Shown here piece by piece: positions 47,529 through 63,017 of a DNA stretch of 64,000 nt. The notes below the pieces were generated by a model. That model had not been told where the DNA came from. It saw only the letters and a list, made by a program, of their open reading frames with translations, and ran no database searches. The stretch spans positions 1-64,000 of the forward strand of contig JAGSGY010000011.1 in NCBI GenBank assembly GCA_023954855.1, given 5' to 3'. How positions within the stretch are numbered: the stretch's first letter is position 1; each line of letters opens with the position of its first letter. A program made the position numbers and the translations under genes. This DNA is from Pseudomonadota bacterium (lineage in GTDB: Bacteria > Myxococcota_A > UBA796 > GCA-2862545).

Positions 47529-49019
47529 ATGCAGTCTCTCGCGCGAATCCTTATGGTCATCCTGGCGACCTCTCTGCTGTTCGAGCCTCCGGCCGTCGCG
47601 GAGCCTGCCGACGCACCGACGATCGAGCAGATGCTCGAGCCGATCACGAAGGAGCGGGCGTTTCGCTCGTTCCGTTCAGCTATGCAGGTCATCCACGTCG
47701 CGTCCGGCGAAGAGGTGTTCTCGCGTAGCGAAGAGCGCGCCCTCGTTCCCGCATCCACGATGAAGGCCATCACCGCTGCTACTGCCCTCCGGACGTTGGG
47801 GCCGGCCCACCGCTTCGAGACGGAGTTCCTCATCGACGGGAAGGTGGATGCCTCCGGAGTGCTCCGCGGGGACCTCGTCGTTCGAGGGGGAGGGGATCCC
47901 ACACTGGTGGTCGAGAAGCTCTGGAAGATGGTGGTGGATCTGGAACTCGAAGGCGTCGAACGTATCGACGGCAACGTGATCTACGACGACAGCTACATGT
48001 CCAGGAACCACCGCATCGCAGGCTGGAACAAGGCCAACGACATCAAGCGCGGGCCGTCCTACTTCGCCCCCATCGGCGCGCTCTCGGTGAACTTCAACAA
48101 CGTGTCCCTCGTGATTCGTCCCGGTGCCGAGGTCGGCAAGCCTGCCCGGGCCCGGCTCGAGACCGAGGCCGGCGACTACGTCGAGATTCACTCCGAGGAG
48201 CTGATCACCTCTGCTGCGGACGGCCGTCTGCGTCTGTCGATTGACAGGGTCGTAGAGGATGATGGCTCCATGGCCTTCACTCTCGACGGCTCGGTGCCCC
48301 TCGACATGGATGCTCGCCGTTTCTACCGCACCGTCGAGGATCCGACGGCCCACTTCATGGCGGTGTTCGAGGGCTTGCTGGACCGTCAGGGCATTCGGGT
48401 CGACGGTCGGCACAAGCGCGGAGCGGTTCCGGACTCAGCCGAGCGGATCGTGAAGCTTCGCTCGCCTCCGCTCACGGCCATCCTGATGGACATGAACAAG
48501 TTCTCGAACAACTTCATGGCTGAGCAGGTCACCCGCGCGCTCGGAGCCGAGGTCCACGGCGAGGGCTCAAATGATCAGGGAGTCAGGGTCATCACCGATT
48601 ACATGGTCTCCCTCGGCCTTGATGCGGACGACTTCGCCATCGCGAACGGCAGTGGCCTGTCTCGAGAGACGCGACTACAGCCCACCCACCTGACGGCGGT
48701 GCTCCTCGATATGGTCGATGATCCTCGCGTAGGTGCGGAGTTCCGTGCTTCGCTCGCGATCGCAGGGACGGACGGAACACTGTGGCGTCGCCTAAACGAC
48801 CAGCCCGGGCGGTTGCGCGGGAAGACGGGGACGGTCGATGGCGTGCACTGCTTGGCTGGGTACATGGAGGCGGCCGATGGCGAGCTGTATGCGTTTGCCT
48901 TTCTTGCGAATGATATTCGCGGCGGCACCGGCAAGGTGAAGGGCATTCACGACCGTCTCGCGCGTAAGATCTTTGAGACCACATGGTCTCCGAACACGTC
49001 GGGGGGAGCGACTCAATGA
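47529..49019 (+). CDS. dacB: D-alanyl-D-alanine carboxypeptidase/endopeptidase (PBP4)
   Basis: The 496-aa exported penicillin-binding protein of the S13 family trims or cleaves peptidoglycan cross-links. Motifs are SxxK (Ser76 in VPASTMKAI), SxN (KFSNNFMAEQVTR) and KTG (RGKTGTVDGVHC), with the long inserted domain between the first two motifs typical of PBP4. The signal peptide is at residues 1-24. It is divergent from the barrel-SppA gene. Confidence 0.95.
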   Translation: MQSLARILMVILATSLLFEPPAVAEPADAPTIEQMLEPITKERAFRSFRSAMQVIHVASGEEVFSRSEERALVPASTMKAITAATALRTLGPAHRFETEFLIDGKVDASGVLRGDLVVRGGGDPTLVVEKLWKMVVDLELEGVERIDGNVIYDDSYMSRNHRIAGWNKANDIKRGPSYFAPIGALSVNFNNVSLVIRPGAEVGKPARARLETEAGDYVEIHSEELITSAADGRLRLSIDRVVEDDGSMAFTLDGSVPLDMDARRFYRTVEDPTAHFMAVFEGLLDRQGIRVDGRHKRGAVPDSAERIVKLRSPPLTAILMDMNKFSNNFMAEQVTRALGAEVHGEGSNDQGVRVITDYMVSLGLDADDFAIANGSGLSRETRLQPTHLTAVLLDMVDDPRVGAEFRASLAIAGTDGTLWRRLNDQPGRLRGKTGTVDGVHCLAGYMEAADGELYAFAFLANDIRGGTGKVKGIHDRLARKIFETTWSPNTSGGATQ

Positions 49020-49131: not shown

Positions 49132-49161
49132 TTGACACCTCAAACGAGGCGACGGTATACC
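49132..49161 (+). promoter_or_regulatory. Sigma-70-like promoter of the Agl/Glt-like locus
   Basis: A perfect TTGACA (49132-49137), an 18-base spacer and TATACC (49156-49161) lie in the 200-base gap after dacB. The predicted start near 49168 would leave a leader of about 50 bases before the first gene. Confidence 0.7.
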
Positions 49162-49219
49162 CACCCGCCGACCGGCTCAGATACACTGCAGCGGGTTGGC
49201 GATCTCCGGAGACAGCTAG

Positions 49220-49885
49220 ATGCGAATTTCCACCGTGGCGCGAGCAGCAGCGTTCAGCGCTCTGCTCCTCGCAAGCACGGCCCTCGCGCAGGATGAGGGC
49301 GGCTTGAGTGATGGCGATTCCGCCGCAGCCGAGCCGGAGCTGCCCGATGCGGCGGCTACCGAGCGAAGCTTCAACAGAGAGCTACGCACCGTTGAGCAAG
49401 ACGTCACGCGCCTCAAAGAGCGTGTGTTTCGGTCAAAAGCGACGCTGCAGCTTCTGAAGGAACTGGTCGTCGAGGGCGCGAGTCTCGGGTCGCGGGTGGT
49501 CATCCACCACGTCAACGAGATGGGGCCGTCCTACACGATGGAGTCGATTCAGTACTTCCTCGATGGGCGAAACGTCTACAACAACGCCGACTTCGAGGAC
49601 GGTCTCGACCATCTTCGCGACATGAAGGTGCATGAGCAGAGCGTGCCCCCCGGGCCCCACACCTTGCAGGTGCAGTACTCGCTGCGCGGCAACGGCTTCG
49701 GCATCTTCAGCTACCTGCGTACGTACTCGTTCAAGGTTCAGTCCTCGTTCGAGTTCGAAGTCGACGACGGTATGGCGACCTCAGTACGGGTCATCGCCGA
49801 CGAGCACAAGGGCTTGACGCGGACCTTCATGGACCGCCCCAACGTCAAGTACATGCCCGACACCCAGCCGATCCGGTCGGAGTAG
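49220..49885 (+). CDS. Exported coiled-coil/beta protein, first gene of the Agl/Glt-like locus
   Basis: The 221-aa product has a signal peptide (MRISTVARAAAFSALLLASTALA), an acidic linker, a coiled-coil segment (NRELRTVEQDVTRLKERVFRSKATLQLLKELV) and a C-terminal domain that looks like a beta sandwich (HTLQVQYSLRGNGFGIFSYLRTYSFKVQ). I do not recognise a named family. Its place at the head of the operon, 24 bases before the TPR gene, implies a periplasmic part of the machine. Confidence 0.8.
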   Translation: MRISTVARAAAFSALLLASTALAQDEGGLSDGDSAAAEPELPDAAATERSFNRELRTVEQDVTRLKERVFRSKATLQLLKELVVEGASLGSRVVIHHVNEMGPSYTMESIQYFLDGRNVYNNADFEDGLDHLRDMKVHEQSVPPGPHTLQVQYSLRGNGFGIFSYLRTYSFKVQSSFEFEVDDGMATSVRVIADEHKGLTRTFMDRPNVKYMPDTQPIRSE

Positions 49886-49909
49886 GCGGTTTTCGCCAAG
49901 GAGCTGAGA

Positions 49910-52234
49910 ATGCCATTCCCGCTCGTGCGCCGTGGTCTTGTGGTGCGCCTTGCGACGCTGGGTCTACTGCTCGCTCCCGCGGTTTCGCTGGGAGCCGATT
50001 CGTTCAAGCAACGGATCAATGAGCTGACCAAGGCTGTCGACAACCTCGACGGACAGGCGCGCACGCTTGATTCCAGCATTGCGCCTGGACGGGGCATCCT
50101 CTCTCGCGAGATGGCGACGCTTCGCTACCAAGATGCCGTCTACGACTTCATGCTCGGCGAGTACGAGCCCGCTGCCGAGGAGTTCTTTTCTCTGGTCGCG
50201 AGCGGAGTCCTCACTGACGCCGGCCTCCATCGCGACAGCGAGTGGTACCTGGCGGAGTCCCTGTTTCAGATGGGGAACGCGGCCACAGCGGAAGGCCAGT
50301 ACCAGTCGATCGCCTCGAACAACAACCACCCGTTTCGCGAGGATGCTGTCAGGCGTCTTCTCGAGCTCTACGCCGTCACGGGTCAGTCCGAGCTGTTCTA
50401 CGAGATCTATCGACGTGAGATCGTCTCGGGAAAGGTCGCTCCGAGTCCGCTGGTCACGTACACGGTCGCCAAGGCCTTCTACGCTCAGTCCGAGCGCACT
50501 GAGGCACGCGAGCAGTTTGCGCGCATTCCGGCCGAGTCCGAGTGGTATGCCCGCGCACGGTACTTCCTTGGCGTCATCGAAGTCGCTGGCGGAAGCTTTG
50601 AGACCGCGCTTCCGTACTTCCTCGAAGTGGCGGACTTGCCTCCGCAGACCGTGGCCGACCGTCAGGTGCAGGACCAGGCGTTGCTCGCCATCGGTCGTCT
50701 TCAGTATGAGCTCGGTCGCTACGACGAGGCGAGTTCTGCCTACATCCGAATCGGCGGTGACTCCGAGTTTCTCGCGGACAAGCTCTACGAAGTGGTTTGG
50801 GTCTACGTGAAGCAAGAGCGCTGGGCAGAAGCCCTGCGCGCCGTCGAGGTGTTCCTCCTCGGCTTCCCGGAGCACGAGTACACCGCTCGCCTCAAGCTAC
50901 TTGAAGGTCACCTGCACCTGCAGCAGGACCAGTATGAGCCGGCGCTGGTGTCGTACGAAGATGTGATCAGCGACTACACACCGGTTCGTGACCGCTTCGC
51001 TGATCTCGCGGGGTCCGACGATGATCCTGGCCGCTATTTTCAGCGTGTGCTCGAGATCTCGCGCGGCGAGCTCTCTGCCGATCGCGCCCTTCCGGCATAC
51101 GCGGTCGCGATGATGCTCGCGGATGACGAGCTCTCTCGCTCGATCTCGGTGTACGAAGACCTCCTGATTCAGGAGGAGGTCGTTGCGACCTCCGAGGCGC
51201 TGATCGTCGAAATCAAGGATGCGCTGTCGAAATCCGAGTCCGTGGGTGGCTTTGGCGAGATTGCCTACCAGGCCTCGACCAACCAGTACCTCACGCTGCG
51301 CACTGAGCTCGATGTGCTCGCACTCGAAGAAGAGTGGCTCATTAAGAACTCGCCGAACAAGCGTATGGCTGACGAGATCGGCCCGCTCGTCGTGCAACGC
51401 GACTCGATTGAGGCTCGCCTGGCTGACCAGGGCGGTACGGGAAGCTCAACGACTCCCGATCAGCCCGCTCCCAAGACCTACTCCGCCGAAGAGCGCCGCC
51501 GGATCGACCTGACCAAAGAGGTGGCGTCGCTCCGTGAGCAGGCTGAGCGGCTGATCGAGGTCGCTGCGGATCCGAGTGCAGACCCGGACGCCAAGGCCGA
51601 AGCAGCCCTGGCACTCGAGGACGTGGAACTCTCGCTCGCGGAGCAGGGAGCCAATCTTCAGGAACTCGGCGGCCCCCTCGAAGGCGACACGACTGTGAGC
51701 GTCGCTGGGTCTGGGTCTGGCGGTGGGGGTTGGGCGCTGGAGCTGTCACGGGAGATTCAGCAGCTGCGCGCCCAGTACCAGCCGTATCGACCTGCCGGTG
51801 ACACGGGCCAGGCGGCGCTCATGAGTGCTCGCTTTGACGGCATGTACACGACGCTCGAGCACGACAGTGACTTGTACGCCGAGATCCTCGACCGCGTTGC
51901 GAGCGCACAGTCCTCTGAGATGGACAAGATTCGCAGCCGTTTCGAGGCCGAAGTGCGGCAGGTCGAGCGCCAGAAGGGCGACCTCGTCGGGACACTCACC
52001 GAGGTCGAGAACGTGTCGGTAGCACTGACGCGCGATGGCTTTGGCCGCCTAGAGGGCTTCTTCAGCGAAGCGCTTCTGGGAGCAGACGTCGGCATTGTCG
52101 ACGTCTTCTGGGCCGAGAAGCTCGAGACAGGTGAGCGCCGCGAGCGACTCGCCGAGGAACGCAACGAGCTGATCGACGAACTCGAGAGTCGCTTCTCTCT
52201 GATTCGCTCCAAGCTCGGTGAGGAGAAGAACTGA
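49910..52234 (+). CDS. Periplasmic TPR/coiled-coil protein (GltC-like in style)
   Basis: The 774-aa product has a signal peptide (VVRLATLGLLLAPAVSLGA), TPR-like helical repeats over about residues 50-430 (YQDAVYDFMLGEYEPAAEEFFSLV, ALLAIGRLQYELGRYDEASSAYI) and a coiled-coil C-terminal third (EERRRIDLTKEVASLREQAERL). Size and layout recall periplasmic TPR protein GltC of the Myxococcus gliding machine, but this is a resemblance, not a proven orthology. Its stop overlaps the next start (TGATG). Confidence 0.8.
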   Translation: MPFPLVRRGLVVRLATLGLLLAPAVSLGADSFKQRINELTKAVDNLDGQARTLDSSIAPGRGILSREMATLRYQDAVYDFMLGEYEPAAEEFFSLVASGVLTDAGLHRDSEWYLAESLFQMGNAATAEGQYQSIASNNNHPFREDAVRRLLELYAVTGQSELFYEIYRREIVSGKVAPSPLVTYTVAKAFYAQSERTEAREQFARIPAESEWYARARYFLGVIEVAGGSFETALPYFLEVADLPPQTVADRQVQDQALLAIGRLQYELGRYDEASSAYIRIGGDSEFLADKLYEVVWVYVKQERWAEALRAVEVFLLGFPEHEYTARLKLLEGHLHLQQDQYEPALVSYEDVISDYTPVRDRFADLAGSDDDPGRYFQRVLEISRGELSADRALPAYAVAMMLADDELSRSISVYEDLLIQEEVVATSEALIVEIKDALSKSESVGGFGEIAYQASTNQYLTLRTELDVLALEEEWLIKNSPNKRMADEIGPLVVQRDSIEARLADQGGTGSSTTPDQPAPKTYSAEERRRIDLTKEVASLREQAERLIEVAADPSADPDAKAEAALALEDVELSLAEQGANLQELGGPLEGDTTVSVAGSGSGGGGWALELSREIQQLRAQYQPYRPAGDTGQAALMSARFDGMYTTLEHDSDLYAEILDRVASAQSSEMDKIRSRFEAEVRQVERQKGDLVGTLTEVENVSVALTRDGFGRLEGFFSEALLGADVGIVDVFWAEKLETGERRERLAEERNELIDELESRFSLIRSKLGEEKN

Positions 52235-55200
52235 TGCGGCGCGTCACTCTGCTGTTGGCACTTGCGCTCGCGCTTCCCGCGGTCGCCCAGGATGTGCCGG
52301 CTCCCACAGGCTCTTCCGCCGAGAAGGTTGCGGGCTACAACGCCGAAGAGGCGGCCGCATACCGCGCTGTCAAGGAGCGCTTCGCCTCTCGTATGGCCGA
52401 GTTCGAGGCCGATACGCGCGCGTTCGTCGACCGAAAGGAAACGATCGAGCGGGACAAGCTGTCCGCGAATTACGACGGCGTGATCTCGACCCTCGAGTCC
52501 GCCGAGACCGGCCAGCGGGAACAGGCGATCACCCGCATGGAAGCCTTCCTCGAGAAGTATGCGGTGAGCGACTACCACGATCATGTCCGCTTCCGCCTGG
52601 CCGAGATGCACTTCGAACTCGCCCGCGAGACGTGGCTGACCGAGGGTGCCGAGTTTGAGCGCCTTGCCGCCGAGCTTGGATTTGACCGCCTCGATGAGCT
52701 CCCGCCAGAGCCGAAGGTCGATTTCTCTCGGTCGCTGGGGCTGTACGAAGAGATCTTGGCTGCGAATGCCGACCGCCCCACTGACCAAAAGTACCAGTTC
52801 ATGGACGGCGTCCACTACATGATGGGCTGGTGCTACAACGAGCCCAACGCCGCTCAGTACGACGAAGACACGTCGCTCGTCTCGTACAGTGCTCTGGTCG
52901 ATGGGTATCCGGATTCGGGCCTAGCGGATCCCGCGCACCTCTTCATCGGCAACTTCCACTTCGACCGCAACGATCTCGGTCCGGCGCTGGAGCACTACCA
53001 GGCTGTCTTCGATAAGGGCTCCGAGGGCGACTACTACATTGCGTCCCTCTACCAGCTGGCTTGGGCCTTCTACAAGCAGGCCAATGAGCCTGAGGAGTAC
53101 GACCAGGCCCTCGACATGTTCGCTCAGGTACTTGATGACTCCGAGATCTCGCTTCGCGAGAGTGGGCGCGAGTCCGAGTACGCTCCGGACGCCATCAAGT
53201 ACATGGCGATCTCGATCTCTGACATCGGCGACAAGATGGGCGAGGACCCAGTCGCGGTGGCCCAGGGCTATTTCTCGCGTAGCACCCCGGGCTCCTATGA
53301 GCGGGACGTTTACGTCGAGCTGGGCGAGGTGCTTACGCAACAGGCTCGTTGGGAAGAGGCCATCGCGGTCTACCGCCATCTCCAGAATGAACCTCGTTGG
53401 GCCGAGAGCGCTGAGAACCCAGACTGGCAGATGAAGATTGTGCGGCTCTGGCTGCAGCCCGAGCCCCCGGACCTCGCGGCATCCGCGGCGGCGCGGATCG
53501 AGCTGACCGAGCGCTACGCTGACGGCTCAGATTGGTGGGTGTCGAACCGGAGCAACCCCGAGGCGCTCGCCACGGCTCGGGCCTACATCGAGGCATCGCT
53601 GGCCGACGTAGCCATCGAGTACCGCCTCAATGCGGACAAGACGGGCAACCCAGACGACTACTCGCTCGCAGCTGCGAAGTTCCGCGAGTACATGGACAAG
53701 TTCCCGATCTCCGACGACTACTACCAGATTCAGTGGTACCTGTCGGACACCCTGTACCGGGGTGGCTTCCACGACGAGGCCTTGGCTGAGAACGCCGACC
53801 TGATCCGTACCCAGCGCGCGCACGACTACGGCGACGCGGCCACCTACTTCTCCATGGACGCGACCCTTTCGTTGCTCCAAGAGAACAACGCGCCCCCGAA
53901 GCTCTCGGAAGAGTTGCTCGACCCCGAACAGCGTCAGCTGGCTCTCGAGCTCAAGGGGCCGCTCTGGGTGGTTCCGCGGAAGGGCGCCGTTGAGCGCACT
54001 TACGAGGCTGGCACCAAGCAGATCAAGGTGCACTCCCTTGGCGAAGACCACGTCGACTTCATGGCGGCGGCAGACCTCGTGCTTCAGCATGAGTTCTCGG
54101 AAGAAGCCATCGAGGGACTGCCGGATTTCCAGGCCGTCCTCGCACAGCGTCGCCACAAGGTCATGTACCTGATCGGGCAGACCCTGTTCTTCCACAACCG
54201 CTACGACGAGGCTCGTCCGAGGCTCGAGAAGCTGGTTGAGGAATACCCGCAGACCAACGAAGGCGCCTTCGCCGCTGGCCTCCTAGTCACCAGCTACCAG
54301 ATCGAAGAGAACCTCGCGGAAGTGCGCCGTCTCACGACCCGCTTTGCGACGATGCAGCTCGGCGAGGATGCCGAGTTCATCGCTGCCCGTCAGGCCGAGT
54401 TCAAGAACCTGCTCGAGGGCACGGCCTTCAAGCAGGCACTCGCGTTCGTTGACGCAGACGATCGCGCCTCCGCCGCCGCGAGCTTCCTCTCCTTCACCGA
54501 GGAGTTCCCGGAGTCCGAGTACGTCCCGCTAGCGCTTTACAACTCGGCGAACAGCTATGAGCTGATCGGTGAGGCGGCCAGGGCAAACGAGCTCTTCGAA
54601 GAGTACGTGAATCGGTACCCGGACGACGACCGCTCGCGAGCCTTGTACTTCCGTATCGCCGCGAACTACGAAGCGACCTTCGAGCTCGAGAAGGCTGTCG
54701 ACTACTATGGTCGTCTGGTCCAGCGTTTCCCGGACTACACGGACACACCGAACGCGATCTACAACTCGTCGTTCCTGCTCATCGGCATGGGTGACCACGC
54801 CGGTGCAGCCAAGGGCTACATCGAGTACGCCACGAAGTACCCCGACTTGCTCGACCGTGAGGAAGTCTACTTCGAGGCTGGAAAGCAGTGGGAAGAAGTA
54901 GGGGACCGCGAAGCTCGTCGCTTCTACGAGGGCTACCTCGCGGAATGGGGCTTCTCGAACCCAGACCATGCGCTGTACGCGAAGTATTGGCTCGCACAGA
55001 TGCACCGCGACTCCGGTCGGGTCACCAAGTACCGGGCCATGATGGATGAGATCGTCGAAGACTACGACCGTCTTGTTTCCGAAGGTCTTCCCGTTCGCGC
55101 CGGCCGTGGCTATGCGGCAGGACGTGCATTCGAGTTGCTCGAAGAGGAGTACGCGACGCTGATCGCGGACAAGCTGATTCGCGACGAGGCGAAGGACGCC

Positions 55201-55659
55201 GAGCTGATCTTCCAGATCAAGCCTGGCCAAGTCGTCGAGTTCGAGAAGAAGGCCCTCGATATCGTCACTCGCTACCAGGACTTTGAGTACAGCGGCGCCG
55301 CGTTGTACTTGGCTGGCTCCGGTTATCTCTACCTTGCCGACCTGGGCTACAGCATCGAGTGCCCACGTGGCTACTCCGAGGCAGAGTGCGACCTGTTCAT
55401 GGAAGTCATCTACGCCGAGGGCTACCCGCAGTTTGATGCGGCGCAAGCCAAGGCTGTGGCCCGCTTCGAGCGGATCATCAAGACGGCGAGTGACCAGAAG
55501 CAGTACAGCGAGTGGGTGGGCAAGGCCTACGACGCGCTCAACGAGCTCGATCCCAAGGGCTACCCGGCTCTGAAGCTCGAGATTCGCGGTGAGCCCCGGG
55601 CTGCCGATGTGCCGCCGATTCTACCGGTTACTGCAGCACCCAACGAGGAGGCCAACTAA
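52234..55659 (+). CDS. Large periplasmic TPR protein (GltD/AgmU-like)
   Basis: The 1141-aa product has a signal peptide (MRRVTLLLALALALPAVAQ) and is built almost wholly of TPR-type helical hairpins (for example LFIGNFHFDRNDLGPALEHYQAVF, ALYNSANSYELIGEAARANELFEEYV, ALYFRIAANYEATFELEKAVDYYG). Length, composition and neighbours match GltD (AgmU), a periplasmic scaffold of Myxococcus gliding machinery. It overlaps both neighbours (TGATG before, TAATG after), so translation is coupled. Confidence 0.8.
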   Translation: MRRVTLLLALALALPAVAQDVPAPTGSSAEKVAGYNAEEAAAYRAVKERFASRMAEFEADTRAFVDRKETIERDKLSANYDGVISTLESAETGQREQAITRMEAFLEKYAVSDYHDHVRFRLAEMHFELARETWLTEGAEFERLAAELGFDRLDELPPEPKVDFSRSLGLYEEILAANADRPTDQKYQFMDGVHYMMGWCYNEPNAAQYDEDTSLVSYSALVDGYPDSGLADPAHLFIGNFHFDRNDLGPALEHYQAVFDKGSEGDYYIASLYQLAWAFYKQANEPEEYDQALDMFAQVLDDSEISLRESGRESEYAPDAIKYMAISISDIGDKMGEDPVAVAQGYFSRSTPGSYERDVYVELGEVLTQQARWEEAIAVYRHLQNEPRWAESAENPDWQMKIVRLWLQPEPPDLAASAAARIELTERYADGSDWWVSNRSNPEALATARAYIEASLADVAIEYRLNADKTGNPDDYSLAAAKFREYMDKFPISDDYYQIQWYLSDTLYRGGFHDEALAENADLIRTQRAHDYGDAATYFSMDATLSLLQENNAPPKLSEELLDPEQRQLALELKGPLWVVPRKGAVERTYEAGTKQIKVHSLGEDHVDFMAAADLVLQHEFSEEAIEGLPDFQAVLAQRRHKVMYLIGQTLFFHNRYDEARPRLEKLVEEYPQTNEGAFAAGLLVTSYQIEENLAEVRRLTTRFATMQLGEDAEFIAARQAEFKNLLEGTAFKQALAFVDADDRASAAASFLSFTEEFPESEYVPLALYNSANSYELIGEAARANELFEEYVNRYPDDDRSRALYFRIAANYEATFELEKAVDYYGRLVQRFPDYTDTPNAIYNSSFLLIGMGDHAGAAKGYIEYATKYPDLLDREEVYFEAGKQWEEVGDREARRFYEGYLAEWGFSNPDHALYAKYWLAQMHRDSGRVTKYRAMMDEIVEDYDRLVSEGLPVRAGRGYAAGRAFELLEEEYATLIADKLIRDEAKDAELIFQIKPGQVVEFEKKALDIVTRYQDFEYSGAALYLAGSGYLYLADLGYSIECPRGYSEAECDLFMEVIYAEGYPQFDAAQAKAVARFERIIKTASDQKQYSEWVGKAYDALNELDPKGYPALKLEIRGEPRAADVPPILPVTAAPNEEAN

Positions 55660-56981
55660 TGCGCACTCTCGCTTCATTGGCCCTTCTTGGAATGGTCGCC
55701 TGCGGTCCGAAGAACGGCGGCGTCGAGAGTCCTGCGGCCACGCCGGCTGAAGAGCCGGCGGCGTCCGCACCGGACGAAGGCGGCACGACCCCCGAACCTG
55801 CGCCAGCAGCACCGACCTCCGAGTCCGTGTCCAAGGCGGACGCGGCGGCGTACGACAAGATCAACGAGGCTGTGGCGCTGCTCGACCCCGGGAAGAACAA
55901 TCACAACCCGGCGGGCGCAAAGACAATTCTGTCCCAGGTCATTGCCTCGAACCCCGATATCGCCACTGCCCACCTGAACATGGGAGTCGCTAAGCACCAG
56001 ATGGGCGACCTGGCCGGTGCTCGCTCCAGCTACATGTCCGCTGGCGACTTGGACAGAGAACTGTCCTTCGTACCTCTGTACATGGGGCGCTTGCAGGAAC
56101 AAGCTGGGCGTCCGGATCTTGCTCTTGCGCAGTACAAGGCCGCAGTGGAGAAGTCGCCGAACGACATCATTCTCCGCGAGGCGCTCGTCGGTGGCCTCGT
56201 CCAAGCAGGTGAGATCGATGAGGCCATCCGGCAGGCCAAGGATGCCCTCAAGGTGAATACGCAGAGCGTTCAGCTCTACAACAGCCTTGGGCTGGCCTAT
56301 CTACAGAAGGGCGAGATCGCGCTTGCGCGCTTCGTCTTCGAGAAGGCACGCAACACGGTCGAGGGAGCGGACGAGAGCGCGGCAATCCACGCCAATCTCG
56401 GACGAGTCCTGCGCCAACAGGAAGACCTGCCGAACGCACGGTTCCATCTCACGAAGTCGGTCGAGCTCGACGAACGCTACCTCCCTGGTCTCGTCTTCCT
56501 GTCGGACCTCTACCTAGAGGACCGGAACTACGGTGATGCCGTTGGTCTCCTCGAGAAGGCCAAGGCGCTCGACGGACGGAACTTCTGGATTCTGCTCAAC
56601 CTCGGTATCGCCTACCGAGGCACCGATGAGTTCGACAAGGCAGAAGCTGCCTACGAAGAGGCCATGAAGGTCGACGCCGAGAACCCGGCGCCGATGTTCA
56701 ACATGGGCATTCTCGATGGCGACTATCGCAAAGACTACGGCAAGGGCATCAAAGCGCTTCAGTCGTACATCGACATGGGCGGCGAACGGGCCGATGTCGC
56801 TGCGAAGTACATCGAGGGACTCGAGAAAGAGAAGCGTCGCGCCGAGCGGCGCCGTCAGCGAGAAGAGCAGCGCAAGCAGGCTGAGGCCGAGGCCGCAGAG
56901 CGGCAGCGTTTGCTTGAACAGGAAGCTGCCCAGGGTGGGGGAGAGGAGACTCCCGCACCCGCACCTGAAGGAGGCGAGTGA
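55659..56981 (+). CDS. TPR lipoprotein (GltE/AglT-like)
   Basis: The 440-aa product starts MRTLASLALLGMVACG, a plausible though non-standard lipobox, followed by a Pro/Glu/Ala linker and about eight TPRs (DIATAHLNMGVAKHQMGDLAGARSSYM, VQLYNSLGLAYLQKGEIALARFVFE, FWILLNLGIAYRGTDEFDKAEAAYEEAM). The tail is a charged coiled coil. GltE (AglT) of Myxococcus is a TPR outer-membrane lipoprotein next to GltD, the same order as here. The stop overlaps the next start (TGATG). Confidence 0.82.
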   Translation: MRTLASLALLGMVACGPKNGGVESPAATPAEEPAASAPDEGGTTPEPAPAAPTSESVSKADAAAYDKINEAVALLDPGKNNHNPAGAKTILSQVIASNPDIATAHLNMGVAKHQMGDLAGARSSYMSAGDLDRELSFVPLYMGRLQEQAGRPDLALAQYKAAVEKSPNDIILREALVGGLVQAGEIDEAIRQAKDALKVNTQSVQLYNSLGLAYLQKGEIALARFVFEKARNTVEGADESAAIHANLGRVLRQQEDLPNARFHLTKSVELDERYLPGLVFLSDLYLEDRNYGDAVGLLEKAKALDGRNFWILLNLGIAYRGTDEFDKAEAAYEEAMKVDAENPAPMFNMGILDGDYRKDYGKGIKALQSYIDMGGERADVAAKYIEGLEKEKRRAERRRQREEQRKQAEAEAAERQRLLEQEAAQGGGEETPAPAPEGGE

Positions 56982-57223
56982 TGAAGCGCATTGCCCTCGC
57001 GATCGTCGTCATAGTGAGCACGCTCTCCGTCTGGTCTAGCTCCGATGCCGAGGCTGCTCGGAAGCGCATCAGCTTCGAGGAGACTCAGATCACGGCTGAG
57101 GTGCAGAAGCCTCAGGTTGCCGTCTTCATCAGTCGGGAAAACCTCCACAAGGGGTATCGACTGGAGCTCCGCGAGAGCTTCATTCCTCGCATTCTCGAGA
57201 GCGTCGAGCGCGCTCCCTTCTAG
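56981..57223 (+). CDS. Small exported protein of the Agl/Glt-like locus
   Basis: The 80-aa product has a signal peptide (MKRIALAIVVIVSTLSVWSSSDAEA) and a short mature part (ISFEETQITAEVQKPQVAVF). GAAGGAGG precedes the ATG at 56981, which overlaps the upstream stop. It closes the TPR part of the locus; a 257-base gap with probable regulatory sites follows before the motor genes. No function is assigned. Confidence 0.75.
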   Translation: MKRIALAIVVIVSTLSVWSSSDAEAARKRISFEETQITAEVQKPQVAVFISRENLHKGYRLELRESFIPRILESVERAPF

Positions 57224-57244
57224 TCTTCGGTCGTAGCGCTGCGC

Positions 57245-57383
57245 GATCGTCAGCCCACCGGTGATCGTCATTGAGGCACACCTTGCTTCCCCTTGACGAA
57301 CCGACGTGGCCTGATGTGGTCGATAGAAGCGGCAAACCCGTCCGTCAGTAAGCTCTGACAGGCTCCTGACGATCCCATACTCA
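57245..57383 (+). promoter_or_regulatory. Candidate promoter and repeated 8-mers before the motor genes
   Basis: GATCGTCA occurs at 57245-57252 and 57263-57270 (18-base period) and inverted, as TGACGATC, at 57367-57374. The inverted copy lies inside a possible promoter, CTGACA (57355-57360) and TACTCA (57378-57383) with a 17-base spacer. These could be binding sites of a repressor that controls the TolQ/ExbD-like genes; this is inference. Confidence 0.4.
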
Positions 57384-57480
57384 CCAAAACCGGCCCGGTC
57401 GTTTACAGTCCCCGGGTCCTGCAATCCGCCCTCACCGGTCAGACCGGGTGGGGGAGATAAACCCAGCGGAGTCTCACGAC

Positions 57481-58140
57481 ATGATCAACCCCATCACCAT
57501 GTTCCAGGACGGCGGTCCGTTCATGTACTTCATCCTCATCGCGGCTGTGTTCGCGATGGCGATTGCATTTGAGCGGCTGTTCTACATCTTCTTCCGCGCC
57601 AACATCAACGCAACCGCGTTCATGGCGCAGGTCCAGAAGCTGATCATGGCCAACAACATCGACCGCGCGATCAAGCTCTGCAACGCAGAGCCGCACGCTG
57701 CTCTCCCCAAGGTTGTCAAGGCCGGCCTCACCCGCGCCAACCGCACCGAGAAGGAGATTGAGAACGCGATCGACGAGGCGACCCTCGAGGTCGGCCCGAT
57801 CCTCAACAAGCGCACCGGCTACCTGTCGATGCTCGCCAACGTTGCAACGCTGCTCGGCCTGCTCGGAACCATCATGGGTCTGATTCAGGCTTTCGAGGCT
57901 GTGGCCCATGCCTCCGCCGAGATGAAGCAGACGCTGCTGGCTGCCGGTATCTCCGTCGCCATGTACACCACCGCTGGTGGTCTGGTCGTCGCTATCCCGA
58001 CCCTCATCCTGCACGCCATCGTCTTGGCGCGTACCAACAAGATCCTCGACGACATTGACCAGTACGGTCTCAAGACGGTGAACCTGCTCACCGCTCGTCG
58101 TCGCGGCGGTCTCAAGGAAGAGGTTGCGGCAGAGGCCTAG
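57481..58140 (+). CDS. TolQ/ExbB/MotA-family proton channel protein (AglR-like)
   Basis: The 219-aa product has one N-terminal helix (FMYFILIAAVFAMAIAFERLFYIFF), a cytoplasmic domain and two C-terminal helices containing TLLGLLGTIMGLIQAF and GISVAMYTTAGGLVVAIPTLILHAIV, the conserved TolQ/ExbB core. With its two ExbD-like partners it would form a proton-driven motor like AglRQS, which powers gliding and spore-coat export in Myxococcus. The ATG at 57481 is preferred over an in-frame GTG at 57448 because it gives the family's usual N-terminus. Confidence 0.92.
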   Translation: MINPITMFQDGGPFMYFILIAAVFAMAIAFERLFYIFFRANINATAFMAQVQKLIMANNIDRAIKLCNAEPHAALPKVVKAGLTRANRTEKEIENAIDEATLEVGPILNKRTGYLSMLANVATLLGLLGTIMGLIQAFEAVAHASAEMKQTLLAAGISVAMYTTAGGLVVAIPTLILHAIVLARTNKILDDIDQYGLKTVNLLTARRRGGLKEEVAAEA

Positions 58141-58196
58141 GCCTTTAACCGCACTGTTCGCCCGCCGACCTCCCCACCGGTCATTGGAGCCACTCT

Positions 58197-58742
58197 ATGG
58201 CTAAGAAGCGACTCGGAACTGCTGAGGAATTGAACCTGGTTCCTATCATGAACCTGGTCACCATCCTCATCCCGTTCCTTCTGATGGCAGCACAGTTCAT
58301 CAGCTTGGCTGTCATCGACTCAACCTTGCCCGCTATCGGCCCACCACAGCCGCCTAGTGAGCAAGAAGATGACGACCCGCCGCTGAGTCTGTCCGTGATG
58401 ATCACGGATGAGGGCTTCACGGTGAAGGGCAGTGGCATCGACGAGATCGTCGGCGCCAGTGAAGACGAAGGCGAAGAAGCCGGACCGACCATTCCCTGCA
58501 CCGTGCAGGGCTGTCCGACTCCCGACACCTACAACGTCGCCGAGCTGACCCGCATGCTGACTGAGATCAAGGACCTTCCGGGCAATGAGGATGAAGAAAA
58601 CGTCATCCTCGTCCCCGAGTCACGGGTTCCGTACGAGGTCCTGGTCTTGACCATGGACTCCGCGCGTAACGATCCTTCGCAGAAGGTCGATGGCAAGTCC
58701 CGCATCCTTTTCCCCTTCGTCGTCATCGCCGGCGGCGCGTGA
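58197..58742 (+). CDS. ExbD/TolR-family protein lacking the key aspartate
   Basis: The 181-aa product has the ExbD/TolR layout: a basic N-terminus, one membrane helix (LNLVPIMNLVTILIPFLLM) and a periplasmic domain. In TolR, ExbD and AglQ the helix holds an Asp that carries the proton; the aligned residue here is Asn19 (the PIMNLV segment). An acidic insert (GASEDEGEEAG) and a CTVQGCP pair follow. It sits between the AglR-like gene and a second ExbD-like gene that keeps the Asp. It is probably a structural or regulatory subunit of the motor. Confidence 0.9.
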   Translation: MAKKRLGTAEELNLVPIMNLVTILIPFLLMAAQFISLAVIDSTLPAIGPPQPPSEQEDDDPPLSLSVMITDEGFTVKGSGIDEIVGASEDEGEEAGPTIPCTVQGCPTPDTYNVAELTRMLTEIKDLPGNEDEENVILVPESRVPYEVLVLTMDSARNDPSQKVDGKSRILFPFVVIAGGA

Positions 58743-58757
58743 TTCTGGGAGCACAGA

Positions 58758-59291
58758 ATGGCTAAGAAAAAGGGACGTCGTCCTACAGTCGAGGGTGAGC
58801 TCAGCATCACCTCGATGATGGACATGATGACCATCATTCTCGTCTTCCTCCTGAAGAGCTACTCCACCGAGGACATCTCGGTGAAGGCTTCGGATGACCT
58901 CGAGATCCCCCTGTCGTCGGCCAAAAAGCCGCCGCGTCTGGCGGTCAACCTTGTTGTCACCCGCTCTCAGGTTCTCGTTGACTCGGTTCCGGTGCTCTCG
59001 CTTGAGCGCGTCCCGGACGAGGAGACTGGCGAAGAGATCGTGCGTGTTCCCGAGGATGAGAAGAAGGGCCAGATGGTCTCGAAGCTCTACGACCGTCTCC
59101 TTGAGAAGGCGGAGTATGCCGAGGAGCTGAGCCAGCGCGCTGGCACCGAGGACTCCGAGTTCAAGGGACAGATTCTTCTCCAGTGCGATCGTCGACTTCC
59201 GTTCAACGTCATCCGTGAGGTCATGTACACCGCGGGTCAGGCAAAGTTCGGCGAGTTCAAGTTTGTCGTCATCCAGGGTGGCGAAGGCTGA
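58758..59291 (+). CDS. ExbD/TolR-family motor subunit
   Basis: The 177-aa product has a basic N-terminus (MAKKKGRRPTVEGE), one membrane helix (LSITSMMDMMTIILVFLLK) that keeps the proton-carrying Asp22, and a periplasmic domain ending FKFVVIQGGEG as in AglQ/AglS and TolR. It starts 16 bases after the first ExbD-like gene. A strong terminator follows, which ends the three-gene motor unit. Confidence 0.92.
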   Translation: MAKKKGRRPTVEGELSITSMMDMMTIILVFLLKSYSTEDISVKASDDLEIPLSSAKKPPRLAVNLVVTRSQVLVDSVPVLSLERVPDEETGEEIVRVPEDEKKGQMVSKLYDRLLEKAEYAEELSQRAGTEDSEFKGQILLQCDRRLPFNVIREVMYTAGQAKFGEFKFVVIQGGEG

Positions 59292-59310
59292 TTCGCACCA
59301 GCTGAAGCTG

Positions 59311-59350
59311 AAGTCCGCCGTAGCCTCGCTGCGGCGGACTTTGTTTTTTC
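59311..59350 (+). terminator. Intrinsic terminator after the motor genes
   Basis: AAGTCCGCCG and CGGCGGACTT form a perfect 10-bp stem with an 11-base loop, followed by TTGTTTTTTC. It separates the motor genes from the transducer gene, which therefore needs its own promoter or read-through. Confidence 0.9.
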
Positions 59351-59683
59351 TATGATGCTCAATGATGAGCAGCGTTTGGGTCGGCACGTAAGCCAGCCGT
59401 TTTGGTGGATTCCTGCGGGGTTTGGCGGCGTTCAGTCGATGCTTCGCCAGCCGGGTGCCACCGGGCTAGTCTACGTTCCGTATTTCGGCAGACCTTTGCT
59501 TGTCAGCCGCCCCTTCCAAGTCTATTCTCGCCCTGCCTTTGGTCTGTTTTCAAAGGCGCAGTGGCCCTGCAATTCCCCATGACTGACGCTGCTCTCACAA
59601 CCTGTGAACCTTTTCGGTTCACGATGGTCAGAGTGGCTAGGCGTCAGAAGGCGCTGGGGAACCAGGCATCGGAGTCCTGATCG
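59351..59683. other. Structured, A/T-richer leader before the GltG-like gene
   Basis: No convincing protein-coding frame is present in these 333 bases. Two inverted repeats stand out: GCCTTTG-N9-CAAAGGC (59535-59557) and GTGAACC-TTTTC-GGTTCAC (59604-59622). They could be operators or leader hairpins. A 33-codon frame from 59578 to 59680 ends just before the next gene but has no clear ribosome-binding site. GGAG at 59671 is the likely ribosome-binding site of the next gene. Confidence 0.5.
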
Positions 59684-61042
59684 ATGGCAGCGCAGGCCAA
59701 TAAAGAAAAGAAGAAGGTGCTCCGGATCGGCGTGATCCAGGGCGGCAAGCTCGTGCAGCAGCGCCTGATTCCCTCTGGTGAGTCCGTTACCATTGGCGAG
59801 AGCGCCAAGGCGACCTTCGTCTTTCCGAAGACGGGGCTCCCGCGGGCTGAATACCCTCTGTTTGTGCACCGGAAGGGCGACTACGTCCTGAACTTCACCG
59901 AGGGCATGAAGGGCAAGATCTCTTCTGGCGGCGTCGCGGTGACCCTGGCGAAGCTCCGGAGTGACCCGGGTGTGGCGCACCAGGGTGGTAGCTGGCGCCT
60001 CGGGCTCACGAACCAGGACCGTGGAAAGGTCGCTGTCGGCGATGTGACCGTGCTGTTCCAGTTCGTTCCGCCTCCGCCGGTACAGGCTGTCCAGCCGCTT
60101 AAGGCCATGGACTTCCGTCCCAGGCTTCTCGAAGATGACGATCCAGTCTTTCTCGGGTTCTTGGGTGTTTGGTGCGCGCTTGCGCTGATTCTTCTCGTGT
60201 TCGTCTACGTGTCAGATCCGCCGGAGTACACGCTCGAAGAGATGCCGGATCGCTTCACCAAGATCGTGCTTCAGCCCGAAGCACCCGAGGTCGAGCCTGA
60301 AGAGGCGGAAGAAACCGAAGAGGTCGACGAGAACGCGGAGGCTGCCGAGGCTGAAGAGGCCGAGCCCGAAGAGGTCGAGCCCGAAGAGCCGAAGGAGCCG
60401 AAGTCGGTCGAAGAGGTTGCTGCCGACCAGCAGCAGCAGATCGAAGAGCTCAAGGAAAAGAGCCTACTCCTCAAGATGCTCACCACTCGTAGTGAGCATG
60501 GTGTGGGCACTGCCGAGGACGCCTTCGCCGAGGGCGACGCGGGGATTGGCGATCTCGACGCGGCGCTGGAAGGCGTCGGAGGTGTTGAGATGGCTACCGG
60601 CGAGAACGGTGGCATTCGCGGCGGCACCGGCACCACCGAAGACGCTGACATCGGCGTGGTCGGTCGGGCAGGCGGCGGCTCGTCGGATCTCGGAGACGGT
60701 CCGTCGACGACGATCAAGGGCTCCGTGGCTTCAGGCACTGTCGACGCTGGCGACCTCGAGGACGGAGATCTCATCCGTCGCACGATCAGCAAGAACCAAG
60801 GTGCGCTGACGTACTGCTATGAGCAGCGTCTCCGTCAGAATCCCTCCCTCTCTGGACGCGTGGAAGTCGAGTGGGCCATCCGCCAAGGACGCCCCACGGG
60901 AATCTCGGTCTTCGCCAACTCGACGGGTGACGACGCGTTTGGTGAGTGCATTGTCGGCAAGATCGCGCGCTGGCGCTTCGATGGCGTAGACACCGATGGT
61001 GACCTCGTCAGCGCTCCGTTCGTGTTCTCTCCGAAGAACTAG
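59684..61042 (+). CDS. FHA-like/TonB-like transmembrane transducer (GltG-like)
   Basis: The 452-aa product has an N-terminal cytoplasmic domain (VLRIGVIQGGKLVQQRLI, SVTIGESAKATFVFP, a pattern like FHA), one membrane helix (FLGVWCALALILLVFVYV), a long acidic Glu/Pro repeat region and a Gly-rich stretch. The C-terminal domain (ISKNQGALTYCYEQRLRQNPSLSGRVEVEW ... CIVGKIARWRF) matches the AgmX/PglI-type C-terminal domain of gliding transducers. GltG of Myxococcus has the same order of parts. It would link the motor to the outer membrane. Confidence 0.85.
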   Translation: MAAQANKEKKKVLRIGVIQGGKLVQQRLIPSGESVTIGESAKATFVFPKTGLPRAEYPLFVHRKGDYVLNFTEGMKGKISSGGVAVTLAKLRSDPGVAHQGGSWRLGLTNQDRGKVAVGDVTVLFQFVPPPPVQAVQPLKAMDFRPRLLEDDDPVFLGFLGVWCALALILLVFVYVSDPPEYTLEEMPDRFTKIVLQPEAPEVEPEEAEETEEVDENAEAAEAEEAEPEEVEPEEPKEPKSVEEVAADQQQQIEELKEKSLLLKMLTTRSEHGVGTAEDAFAEGDAGIGDLDAALEGVGGVEMATGENGGIRGGTGTTEDADIGVVGRAGGGSSDLGDGPSTTIKGSVASGTVDAGDLEDGDLIRRTISKNQGALTYCYEQRLRQNPSLSGRVEVEWAIRQGRPTGISVFANSTGDDAFGECIVGKIARWRFDGVDTDGDLVSAPFVFSPKN

Positions 61043-61137
61043 GTCAGACCCTTCGGTTGGCCGGTCCAAGGCGTTGCTTGACGGTGATGCCTCGGAGCGG
61101 GTACGAAGGAAGTGGTGCCATCCCTCTGGAGAACCCG

Positions 61138-61677
61138 ATGTTTCGAACTCTCTCACTCCTCCTCCTCCTGGCGACGCCTGTCGCTATGGCCCAGGACGGG
61201 GGAATTGCCGGCGACCTGGAGCGGGCATCTGCGACCAGCGACGGCGAGAAGCTTGACTACGCTGAGGCTTCCACGGCGGAGCTGAAGTCGGCTGTACTCG
61301 AAGTTGCGGGCCTGCTCGAAGAGGCCCGACGGACGGGAGATGATGTGGAGCGCCTCGAGTGCATCACGCGTCACCTACAGAGCCTTCGCGTGCTTCTGAA
61401 CTCCGTTCAGGAGGGCACCGCGCAACTCTCGGCTGAGCTGAGCGGCTCGACCGCACAAGCCGATCACACCTTCCGGCGCATCGTGGTTGCGCGAGGCAAG
61501 GGACGCGAGCTGCTCGCCCTGGCCCTCCAGTGCACGGATGACGGTTCCGCCTCTGACGGAAGTACCGTTGTCGACTGGACTTCCGAGCTCCTCGACAACA
61601 CCGAAGACCTCGACGGCGTTTCTGAAGATCCGCTCGATCTTGGCTTTGACCCACCGGCTGCAAGCCCTTACCAGTAG
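61138..61677 (+). CDS. Exported helical protein of the Agl/Glt-like locus
   Basis: The 179-aa product has a signal peptide (MFRTLSLLLLLATPVAMAQ) and a mainly helical mature part (ELKSAVLEVAGLLEEARRTGDDVERLECITRHLQSL) with an acidic C-terminus and two cysteines. The ATG at 61138 with GGAG 7 bases upstream is chosen. I do not recognise a family. Its place between the transducer and the barrel suggests a periplasmic adaptor. Confidence 0.75.
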   Translation: MFRTLSLLLLLATPVAMAQDGGIAGDLERASATSDGEKLDYAEASTAELKSAVLEVAGLLEEARRTGDDVERLECITRHLQSLRVLLNSVQEGTAQLSAELSGSTAQADHTFRRIVVARGKGRELLALALQCTDDGSASDGSTVVDWTSELLDNTEDLDGVSEDPLDLGFDPPAASPYQ

Positions 61678-61769
61678 ACCCGCGTCCGCGAGTGTATTAT
61701 CGACGGCGTCGCGACTGACGTGCTGGGAGACCCTTGGGCCCGAAGAGTGTGAACGAAGGGATGCGAACG

Positions 61770-63017
61770 ATGCGCTACGGCGTGGCTGCGGTCACGTGCG
61801 CCTTGCTTGCGCCAGCCGTCGGAGTGGCCGCTCCTGGTGACCACATTCATGTGGGCGAAGCGGTGCTGACGCCCACCCTGGACCTTGGGCTCGAGCATCG
61901 GACCAATGTGTACCGGCGTGACCAGCGGTTTGTCGCAGGAACCGCCTTTCGCGTTGCGCCCGGACTCGACCTCTCTCTCGATGGTCCAGAGGTCTTCGTC
62001 GGCATCAACGGCGAGTGGGAGCTTCGCAAGTACATCCAGTCCTATGCGACCAACCTCGATCGTCTCAACGATTTCAACCTCGGTGGTCGGGTTGACCTGT
62101 TCCGCAATCGGCCGCTGGGCCTCGAGCTGCGAGAGTCCGCGACGCTGCGGAACAACACGGTGGACAGCGGTGGTGCAGAAGACCCATTCGCGACCCAGCT
62201 TCGCAACGAGGCCGGAGCACGGGTAAAGATTCGCTTCGGGCCAGCGTTGGAAGTCGTGCCCGGCTTCACGCATACATTCGACGACTTCCGCGTTCCAGAT
62301 GGCGCCATCGTCGGCAACCCCGACCGGCACTACAACACGCGGTCGGGCCTGACGCCCGGACTCGCTGCGCAGTGGAAGTTCTTTCCACGCACGGCCTTGG
62401 TCTTCGACTCAAGCCTGACGTTCTTCTCTTGGTCTGAGAATCAGATCTCACGACTTGCCCAGCAGCCTGGGTCGTTGAGCGTGGCGATTCCGAACTCGAC
62501 GCACCTGAAGGTGAAGACGGGTCTACGCGGGCGCGTGAGTGAGAACATCACGACGACCGTCGAGCTTGGGTACGGCTTCGCCAACTACAAGTCCGAGGGC
62601 CTGACCGGTTCCGGAGAGATTGCTGCCGACCTCGGTGGACTGAAGGGGCTGCTCGTCACTGCGCAGGCCCAGTACCTTCTCACGCCACGGCAGAAGTTCA
62701 CGGTCGGCTACAAGAAAGACTTCGCCGATAGCTGGTTCAGCAACTTCATGACCTACAACCACCTGTACCTCAAGCACCACGGTGCCTACGGTGAGCGGGT
62801 GACCTCCGATGTAGAGCTCATGATGCGTTTCGAAGGGTACGAAGGCGCCGTCCTCCGCGACGACCGGATGCTTCGTGTGAAGGCCGACGGCACGTTCGCA
62901 CTGCAGGACTGGGCGAGCACGACGGTGGGGCTCTGGTATACGCAGCGGAGCTCGACCGATGCGTTGGTCGCCTGGAACGACATCAACATCCACTGGCTTG
63001 CCACGTTCACCTACTAA
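61770..63017 (+). CDS. Outer-membrane beta-barrel protein (GltA/B/H-like role)
   Basis: The 415-aa product has a signal peptide (MRYGVAAVTCALLAPAVGVAA) and a continuous series of amphipathic strands with many aromatic residues (LELRESATLRNNTV, AQWKFFPRTALVFDSSLTFF, TTVELGYGFANYKSEG, WASTTVGLWYTQRSS), ending in Tyr (WLATFTY), a normal outer-membrane C-terminus. The ATG at 61770 has GAAGGG 9 bases upstream. The Glt system uses several such barrels (GltA, GltB, GltH); which one this matches cannot be told from sequence alone. Confidence 0.8.
   Translation: MRYGVAAVTCALLAPAVGVAAPGDHIHVGEAVLTPTLDLGLEHRTNVYRRDQRFVAGTAFRVAPGLDLSLDGPEVFVGINGEWELRKYIQSYATNLDRLNDFNLGGRVDLFRNRPLGLELRESATLRNNTVDSGGAEDPFATQLRNEAGARVKIRFGPALEVVPGFTHTFDDFRVPDGAIVGNPDRHYNTRSGLTPGLAAQWKFFPRTALVFDSSLTFFSWSENQISRLAQQPGSLSVAIPNSTHLKVKTGLRGRVSENITTTVELGYGFANYKSEGLTGSGEIAADLGGLKGLLVTAQAQYLLTPRQKFTVGYKKDFADSWFSNFMTYNHLYLKHHGAYGERVTSDVELMMRFEGYEGAVLRDDRMLRVKADGTFALQDWASTTVGLWYTQRSSTDALVAWNDINIHWLATFTY

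Follow-up and report, generated by a model that had tools for sequence, protein, structure and literature searches.

A Myxococcota gene cluster related to the Agl-Glt and Nfs machines and probably involved in export or handling of a surface polysaccharide

The window analysed here, the whole stretch of 64,000 nucleotides at positions 1 to 64,000 of contig JAGSGY010000011.1 (assembly GCA_023954855.1; genome G000, contig C128 in our numbering, 6.1 Mb in 178 contigs), carried eleven plus-strand genes at positions 49220-63017, encoding in order protein X, GltC-, GltD-, GltE- and GltF-like proteins, an AglR-like channel subunit, two ExbD-like subunits, a GltG-like transducer, protein Y and an outer-membrane barrel. 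Gene trees indicate that loci of this type (clade W) are an old sister group to the machines for gliding and spore-coat formation in Myxococcus, forming a separate clade that excludes both. The locus probably encodes (probability about 0.6) a trans-envelope machine driven by the proton motive force and used in the export or handling of polysaccharide rather than in gliding; an OPX gene lies beside the barrel gene in most relatives, and export of a surface sugar polymer, not gliding, is therefore the probable function. The features of the locus were:

49220-49885, plus strand: X, secreted periplasmic protein of 221 amino acids (aa), a coiled coil followed by a conserved domain of about 130 aa (19-row alignment); marker gene of the W locus.
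49910-52234, plus strand: GltC-like periplasmic TPR protein, 774 aa (NF033756 gliding_GltC, E 3.6e-16, 59 bits against a cut-off of 450), syntenic.
52234-55659, plus strand: GltD-like periplasmic TPR protein, 1141 aa, with TPR matches; in clade W of the GltD tree, apart from Glt/Nfs.
55659-56981, plus strand: GltE-like TPR lipoprotein, 440 aa (NF033758 gliding_GltE, E 2.1e-35, 122.5 bits against a cut-off of 225), lipobox GMVAC/G recognized by eye.
56981-57223, plus strand: GltF-like small secreted protein, 80 aa, found with an iterated hidden Markov model; its start overlaps the gltE stop.
57448-58140, plus strand: AglR-like MotA/TolQ/ExbB channel subunit (PF01618 MotA_ExbB, E 6.3e-25); the true start may be a later ATG.
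58197-58742, plus strand: first ExbD-like subunit, in the AglQ position (PF02472, E 4.3e-9), with Asn19 instead of the ion-carrying Asp.
58758-59291, plus strand: second ExbD-like subunit, in the AglS position (PF02472, E 8e-10), Asp22 retained.
59309-59343, plus strand: terminator-like hairpin with a T run between the motor genes and gltG (from a pattern scan whose total was not above that of shuffled sequences).
59684-61042, plus strand: GltG-like transducer, 452 aa (NF033760, E 1e-42, 146.5 bits against a cut-off of 650; NF033768, AgmX/PglI C-terminal domain, over its cut-off).
61138-61677, plus strand: Y, W-specific secreted protein, 179 aa, conserved beside the barrel gene.
61761-63017, plus strand: outer-membrane beta-barrel, 418 aa, 18 predicted strands, EpsL/BBP2_2-like family, Wzp-like (model pLDDT 86.7, pTM 0.83).

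The TPR scaffolds, TPR lipoprotein, AglR-like channel, two ExbD-like partners, GltG-like transducer and barrel that an earlier note had described on the plus strand were all present at 49.2-63.0 kb; the note had missed the GltF-like gene, and the gene for X belongs to the cluster but does not encode a TPR protein. Membership of the locus in the Agl-Glt/Nfs core family was near certain: homologues of gltC, gltD, gltE and gltG lay within one region together with an AglR-like channel and two ExbD-like subunits, the composition of the Group B core complexes (PMC3169522), and the same gene order across loci of many families placed the clustering far beyond chance. GltF-family homologues occurred in all three types of locus, W, Glt and Nfs, and lay there between gltE and gltG. 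The GltC-, GltE- and GltG-like scores all remained under the NCBIfam equivalog cut-offs (see list above), and equivalence to the gliding proteins at that level did not hold. Placement with Tol-Pal or generic TonB systems in profile searches, the outcome named in advance as contrary to a Glt/Nfs origin, was not seen: a Tol-Pal or plain TonB identity was rejected (TolQ 59.7 of 221 bits, TolR 16 of 127 bits; a search of the locus genes gave neither TolB nor Pal).

The GltD tree computed with FastTree (109 rows) separated W (79 rows) from the Glt/Nfs type, labelled G (26 rows), as the two sides of one branch with support 100, and the same split of W from Glt plus Nfs was recovered with IQ-TREE (37 rows, support 100). 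The G side included Glt- and Nfs-type clusters of Archangium metagenome-assembled genomes (MAGs), one of them carrying a GltG over the equivalog cut-off, and the Nfs-type clusters of Archangium fell outside W. The major lineages of the phylum recurred as groups within W of the unrooted tree, a pattern that would fit an old duplication. On contig 32, the window genome also carried a separate cluster of the Glt type. It comprised two OMP_myx_plus barrels, gltC, gltD, gltE, gltF and a gltG with the FHA region, and its GltC scored 254 bits as against 59 for the window protein. This second cluster and the position of the locus in clade W tell against the unified Glt machine that had been proposed from the sequence. 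The contig 32 cluster (L057, G000:C32:21200-41100) ran into the contig end, and upstream of it lay a TonB/ExbB/ExbD set together with a TonB-dependent receptor; the upstream ExbB was considered as a Tol-Pal component, and this was rejected, as it is part of that set.

The order X-gltC-gltD-gltE-gltF-(aglR-exbD-exbD)-gltG-Y-omp recurred in Bradymonadales, Sandaracinaceae, Anaeromyxobacter and Archangium MAGs, in many further families, and in a rumen clade labelled UBP6 or Spirochaetales; it was conserved across most Myxococcota lineages. Of 235 genomes sampled from the phylum, 170 had X (E<=1e-10), as did 134 of the 175 of good quality, and many of the listed genomes without X (e.g. families f13, f17 and f19) were also without a strong GltG match. 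Neither X (no family match over cut-off) nor Y (no family match) was assigned by profile searches. Counterparts of X, Y and the barrel were sought among the genes of the Glt/Nfs loci searched and rejected, no convincing homologue being found: X gave one weak match (E 0.098) to the gene preceding nfsC, and Y gave weak matches (E 0.005-0.02), mostly on GltF genes.

The neighbourhood of the barrel gene gave a link to polysaccharide. Counting distinct loci with enough flank, and defining OPX as Poly_export plus SLBB, an OPX gene directly followed the barrel gene in 64 of the 69 W loci that lie outside the class of the window and in 1 of the 20 that belong to it; OPX adjacency is thus the rule outside the class and missing within it. 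One of the five exceptions outside the class had its OPX gene 3.6 kb away. The pattern extended to the distant rumen clade, and the Archangium locus L248 carried a gene for a short OPX lipoprotein (Poly_export plus one SLBB) 5 bp after the barrel gene. The window genome encoded a single OPX protein, on contig 14, together with glycosyltransferases, a sugar transferase and a sulfotransferase and with no W-type barrel; all seven class members tested (7/7) likewise had an OPX gene without a W-type barrel nearby.

The barrel was not of the GltA/B type, a candidate rejected in the absence of an OMP_myx_plus (TIGR04565) match (2 of 44 homologues matched, best E 0.024). Among homologues, BBP2_2 was matched by 28 of 44 and EpsL by 11 of 44 (best 5e-10). 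Compared with solved structures, the predicted model ranked the alginate exporter AlgE first, level with OprD-type porins (Z 20.9, root-mean-square deviation 4.6, 312 residues aligned for AlgE). For the M. xanthus barrels EpsX, ExoB and WzpB, 18 strands are predicted, and EpsX has AlgE as its closest structural homologue (PMC9601211).

Should the two ExbD proteins together make up the axle, as in the 5:2-type motors of this family, the motor of the window would have only one proton site. Asn occupied the column of the ion-carrying Asp in the first ExbD subunit of 61 of the 80 homologues having a residue there (N19 in the window), and Asp was retained in the second subunit of 84 of 86 (D22), a few Glt-type motors being included in these counts. 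In M. xanthus, the D28N change in AglQ abolishes proton conduction and stops the gliding motor (PMC3858216). The W-type motor of Archangium had Asp in both ExbD subunits, so not every W motor is limited to one site. The motor triplet lay outside the W locus in Archangium, Sandaracinaceae and some others. Archangium carried two Agl-like motor sets, one nested in the W clade of AglR (support 97/99) and the other grouped with a motor adjoining a Glt-type gltG (support 96/99 in the motor tree).

The GltG-like match to NF033760 spanned model positions 204-647 of 650. GltG begins with ~200 residues that include the canonical FHA domain, and these are absent here. The window protein was laid out as an N-terminal domain (residues ~10-130), a transmembrane helix (154-176), an acidic low-confidence linker and a TonB-like C-terminal domain (345-451), the last matching TonB C-terminal domains when the AlphaFold2 model was searched with Foldseek. 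The N-terminal domain was modelled with high confidence and matched FHA domains (probability 1.0, TM by target ~0.55-0.63 for the best), none of the matches passing E 0.001. Pfam FHA was found in 0 of 35 homologues and TonB_C in 26 of 35, and phosphothreonine-binding residues were not evident by eye in the FHA-fold domain. The description of the protein as an FHA/TonB-type transducer was thus right as to fold, the FHA domain being visible solely as a predicted fold. Searches covering the phylum and one family returned no genome over the GltG equivalog cut-off, which was exceeded only in three Archangium/Myxococcaceae MAGs to which the loci had led. GltG-like paralogues also occurred singly, away from any other glt gene (L056 at G000:C97:38974-40254, L136, L147, L157 and others), and the window genome had 17 matches to the AgmX/PglI C-terminal domain.

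Under the preferred reading, the AglR/ExbD/ExbD motor of the locus would be driven by protons and would pull or turn the GltG-like transducer; the force would pass through the periplasmic GltC-, GltD- and GltF-like proteins, X and Y and the lipoprotein GltE to the 18-stranded barrel; and surface polysaccharide would leave the cell through this Wzp/EpsL-type barrel together with an OPX protein. The barrel of the window genome may be paired with the single OPX protein of contig 14.

A likely counterpart can be proposed in M. xanthus. Published work gives MXAN_1922 as the gltD homologue in cluster G4, a cluster to which no function had been assigned (PMC3169522). The barrel WzpB, with 18 strands, is encoded by MXAN_1916, and the OPX protein WzaB by MXAN_1915 at a distance of 23 bp, both in the biosurfactant polysaccharide (BPS) pathway (PMC9603273). 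The Archangium order gltD-gltE-gltF-gltG-cNMP-Y-omp-OPX (cNMP, cyclic nucleotide) matches, gene by gene and in descending order, MXAN_1922 to MXAN_1915, and W therefore probably corresponds to G4 (MXAN_1922 to 1917) joined to WzpB/WzaB (MXAN_1916/1915), with the orphan motor MXAN_3003-5 as its putative source of power. The positions of the ExbD domains in AglQ and AglS (Table 1 of PMC3169522) fit the Glt-side motor set of Archangium, so the W-nested set should correspond to MXAN_3003-5. These motor genes are dispensable for motility and sporulation, and the AglR homologue MXAN_3003 bound neither GltG nor NfsG (PMC3858216), as expected if the W transducer is its partner. No paper making this connection was found among those searched.

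Several points weigh against an export role. No OPX gene stood beside the window barrel, which was followed by ftsK, lolA and rimO, and none did so in 19 of the 20 loci of the class. The window barrel by itself matched no family, and matches to polysaccharide families were found in relatives only; its AlgE match was tied with OccK/OprD-type porins, and Foldseek alone returned unspecific porins and receptors, an unspecific fold that we counted on this side. The M. xanthus identity rests on gene counting and domain offsets read through Archangium. Motility was not appreciably impaired by a polar insertion in MXAN_1922 (PMC3169522), although a lack of BPS could have been expected to affect swarming.

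Three other explanations were weighed. The first is a general part in envelope maintenance of the Tol-Pal kind (outer-membrane constriction, or lipid or lipoprotein transport), the OPX adjacency being secondary. The near-universal presence in the main lineages of the phylum, the PBP4, ftsK and lolA neighbours and a class without adjacent OPX genes agree with it; it is nevertheless unlikely, given that neither TolB nor Pal was among the locus genes searched, that the TolQ/TolR models stayed far under cut-off, and that almost every locus outside the class, those of the distant rumen clade included, had OPX directly after the barrel.

Ranked below it, and improbable, is surface transport without export, in which the machine would move an already exported polymer round the cell and the barrel would anchor the polymer in the manner of Wzi. 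Agl-Nfs moves Exo polymer round the spore surface and is not its exporter (PMC3858216), and the 18-stranded Wzi anchors the capsule (PMC9601211), but a barrel directly adjacent to OPX is the pattern of a composite export pore (PMC9601211).

The least probable of the three is that the locus is the organism's ancestral or compact Agl-Glt gliding motor: although it shares GltC, D, E, F and G and an Agl-like motor with the gliding machine, and its AglR-like channel was the only one of the genome's 8 MotA_ExbB matches close to the W/Agl channels and so might drive the Glt cluster as well (in the way that Glt and Nfs share AglRQS; PMC3858216), the contig 32 cluster with its OMP_myx_plus barrels and FHA-bearing GltG, the exclusion of Glt and Nfs from clade W and a barrel of another family, OPX-linked in relatives, all argue against it.

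Compared with known systems, W resembles the Group B core complex in having gltC, gltD, gltE, gltG, aglR and two exbD genes in one region (PMC3169522), but adds GltF, X, Y, a Wzp-type barrel and, in most relatives, OPX; the published loci of gammaproteobacteria and Geobacter have an additional gene. The Archangium-inferred gene order of M. xanthus G4 plus WzpB/WzaB fits W one for one; the W locus of Archangium has its motor triplet elsewhere and a cNMP-binding gene inserted, whereas the window has the motor within the locus and no OPX gene. The Glt gliding machine (M. xanthus G1/G2/M1) shares homologues of GltC-G and of the motor with W, which lies in another clade and lacks in its locus an OMP_myx_plus GltA/B-like barrel, a giant GltI-like TPR gene and a canonical FHA domain. 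The Nfs spore-coat machine, encoded by nfsA-H as one cluster by itself (PMC3858216), shares GltC-G homologues and a polymer-related role; it belongs to another clade and borrows AglRQS, whereas W has its own motor. Composite OPX/barrel translocons (EpsX/EpsY, WzpB/WzaB) have an 18-stranded AlgE-like barrel beside a short OPX protein (PMC9601211, PMC9603273), an arrangement that most W loci would share; a proton motor and a Glt-type complex across the periplasm are the additions of W.

Single-locus Agl-Glt/Nfs core complexes (Group B genes) were described by Luciano et al. in 2011, along with the idea of their ancestral status (PMC3169522), so that part of the earlier suggestion of an ancestral or differently used machine was already published; its alternative of a surface-polymer machine fits better. 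The phylum-wide W branch, the tie to OPX and barrel, the assignment of G4 and M2 and the Asn in ExbD seem to be new. Tentatively, and at less than even odds, the whole branch may be a motor-powered exporter, in which a motor driven by the proton motive force acts via a Glt-type complex on an OPX/18-stranded pore so that release is mechanically driven, most motors working with one proton-carrying Asp. The functions of G4, G5 and the second Agl motor of M. xanthus were left open in 2011-2013; the conserved gene order links G4 with an outer-membrane translocon for polysaccharide and with the second Agl motor, a prediction that can be tested in M. xanthus. If it is true, the gliding and spore-coat machines would be relatives of a polymer-handling machine, and some polysaccharide pores would be coupled to the proton motive force.

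Other loci showed further arrangements. A rumen UBP6-type genome (UBA1177, contig 7; L301) had a W locus beside a Glt-type gltC-gltD-gltE-gltG locus on the same strand. A gene with a cyclic-nucleotide-binding domain was inserted after gltG in Myxococcaceae-type W loci (L248:11378-11842, L228, L233, L245, L247 and L251). A further gltC/gltD/gltE/gltG cluster, the fourth and a highly divergent one, was present in Archangium MAGs (L289 and L303) and may correspond to M. xanthus G5 (MXAN_1327).

The cluster of the window was flanked by a gene for a PBP4/S13 peptidase upstream (47529-49019) and by ftsK (63191 onward), lolA and rimO downstream. From the hairpin after the motor genes, the locus may comprise two or more transcription units. 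This placement of the PBP4/S13 carboxypeptidase gene, immediately upstream of the W locus, is conserved in the family of the window and in some relatives.

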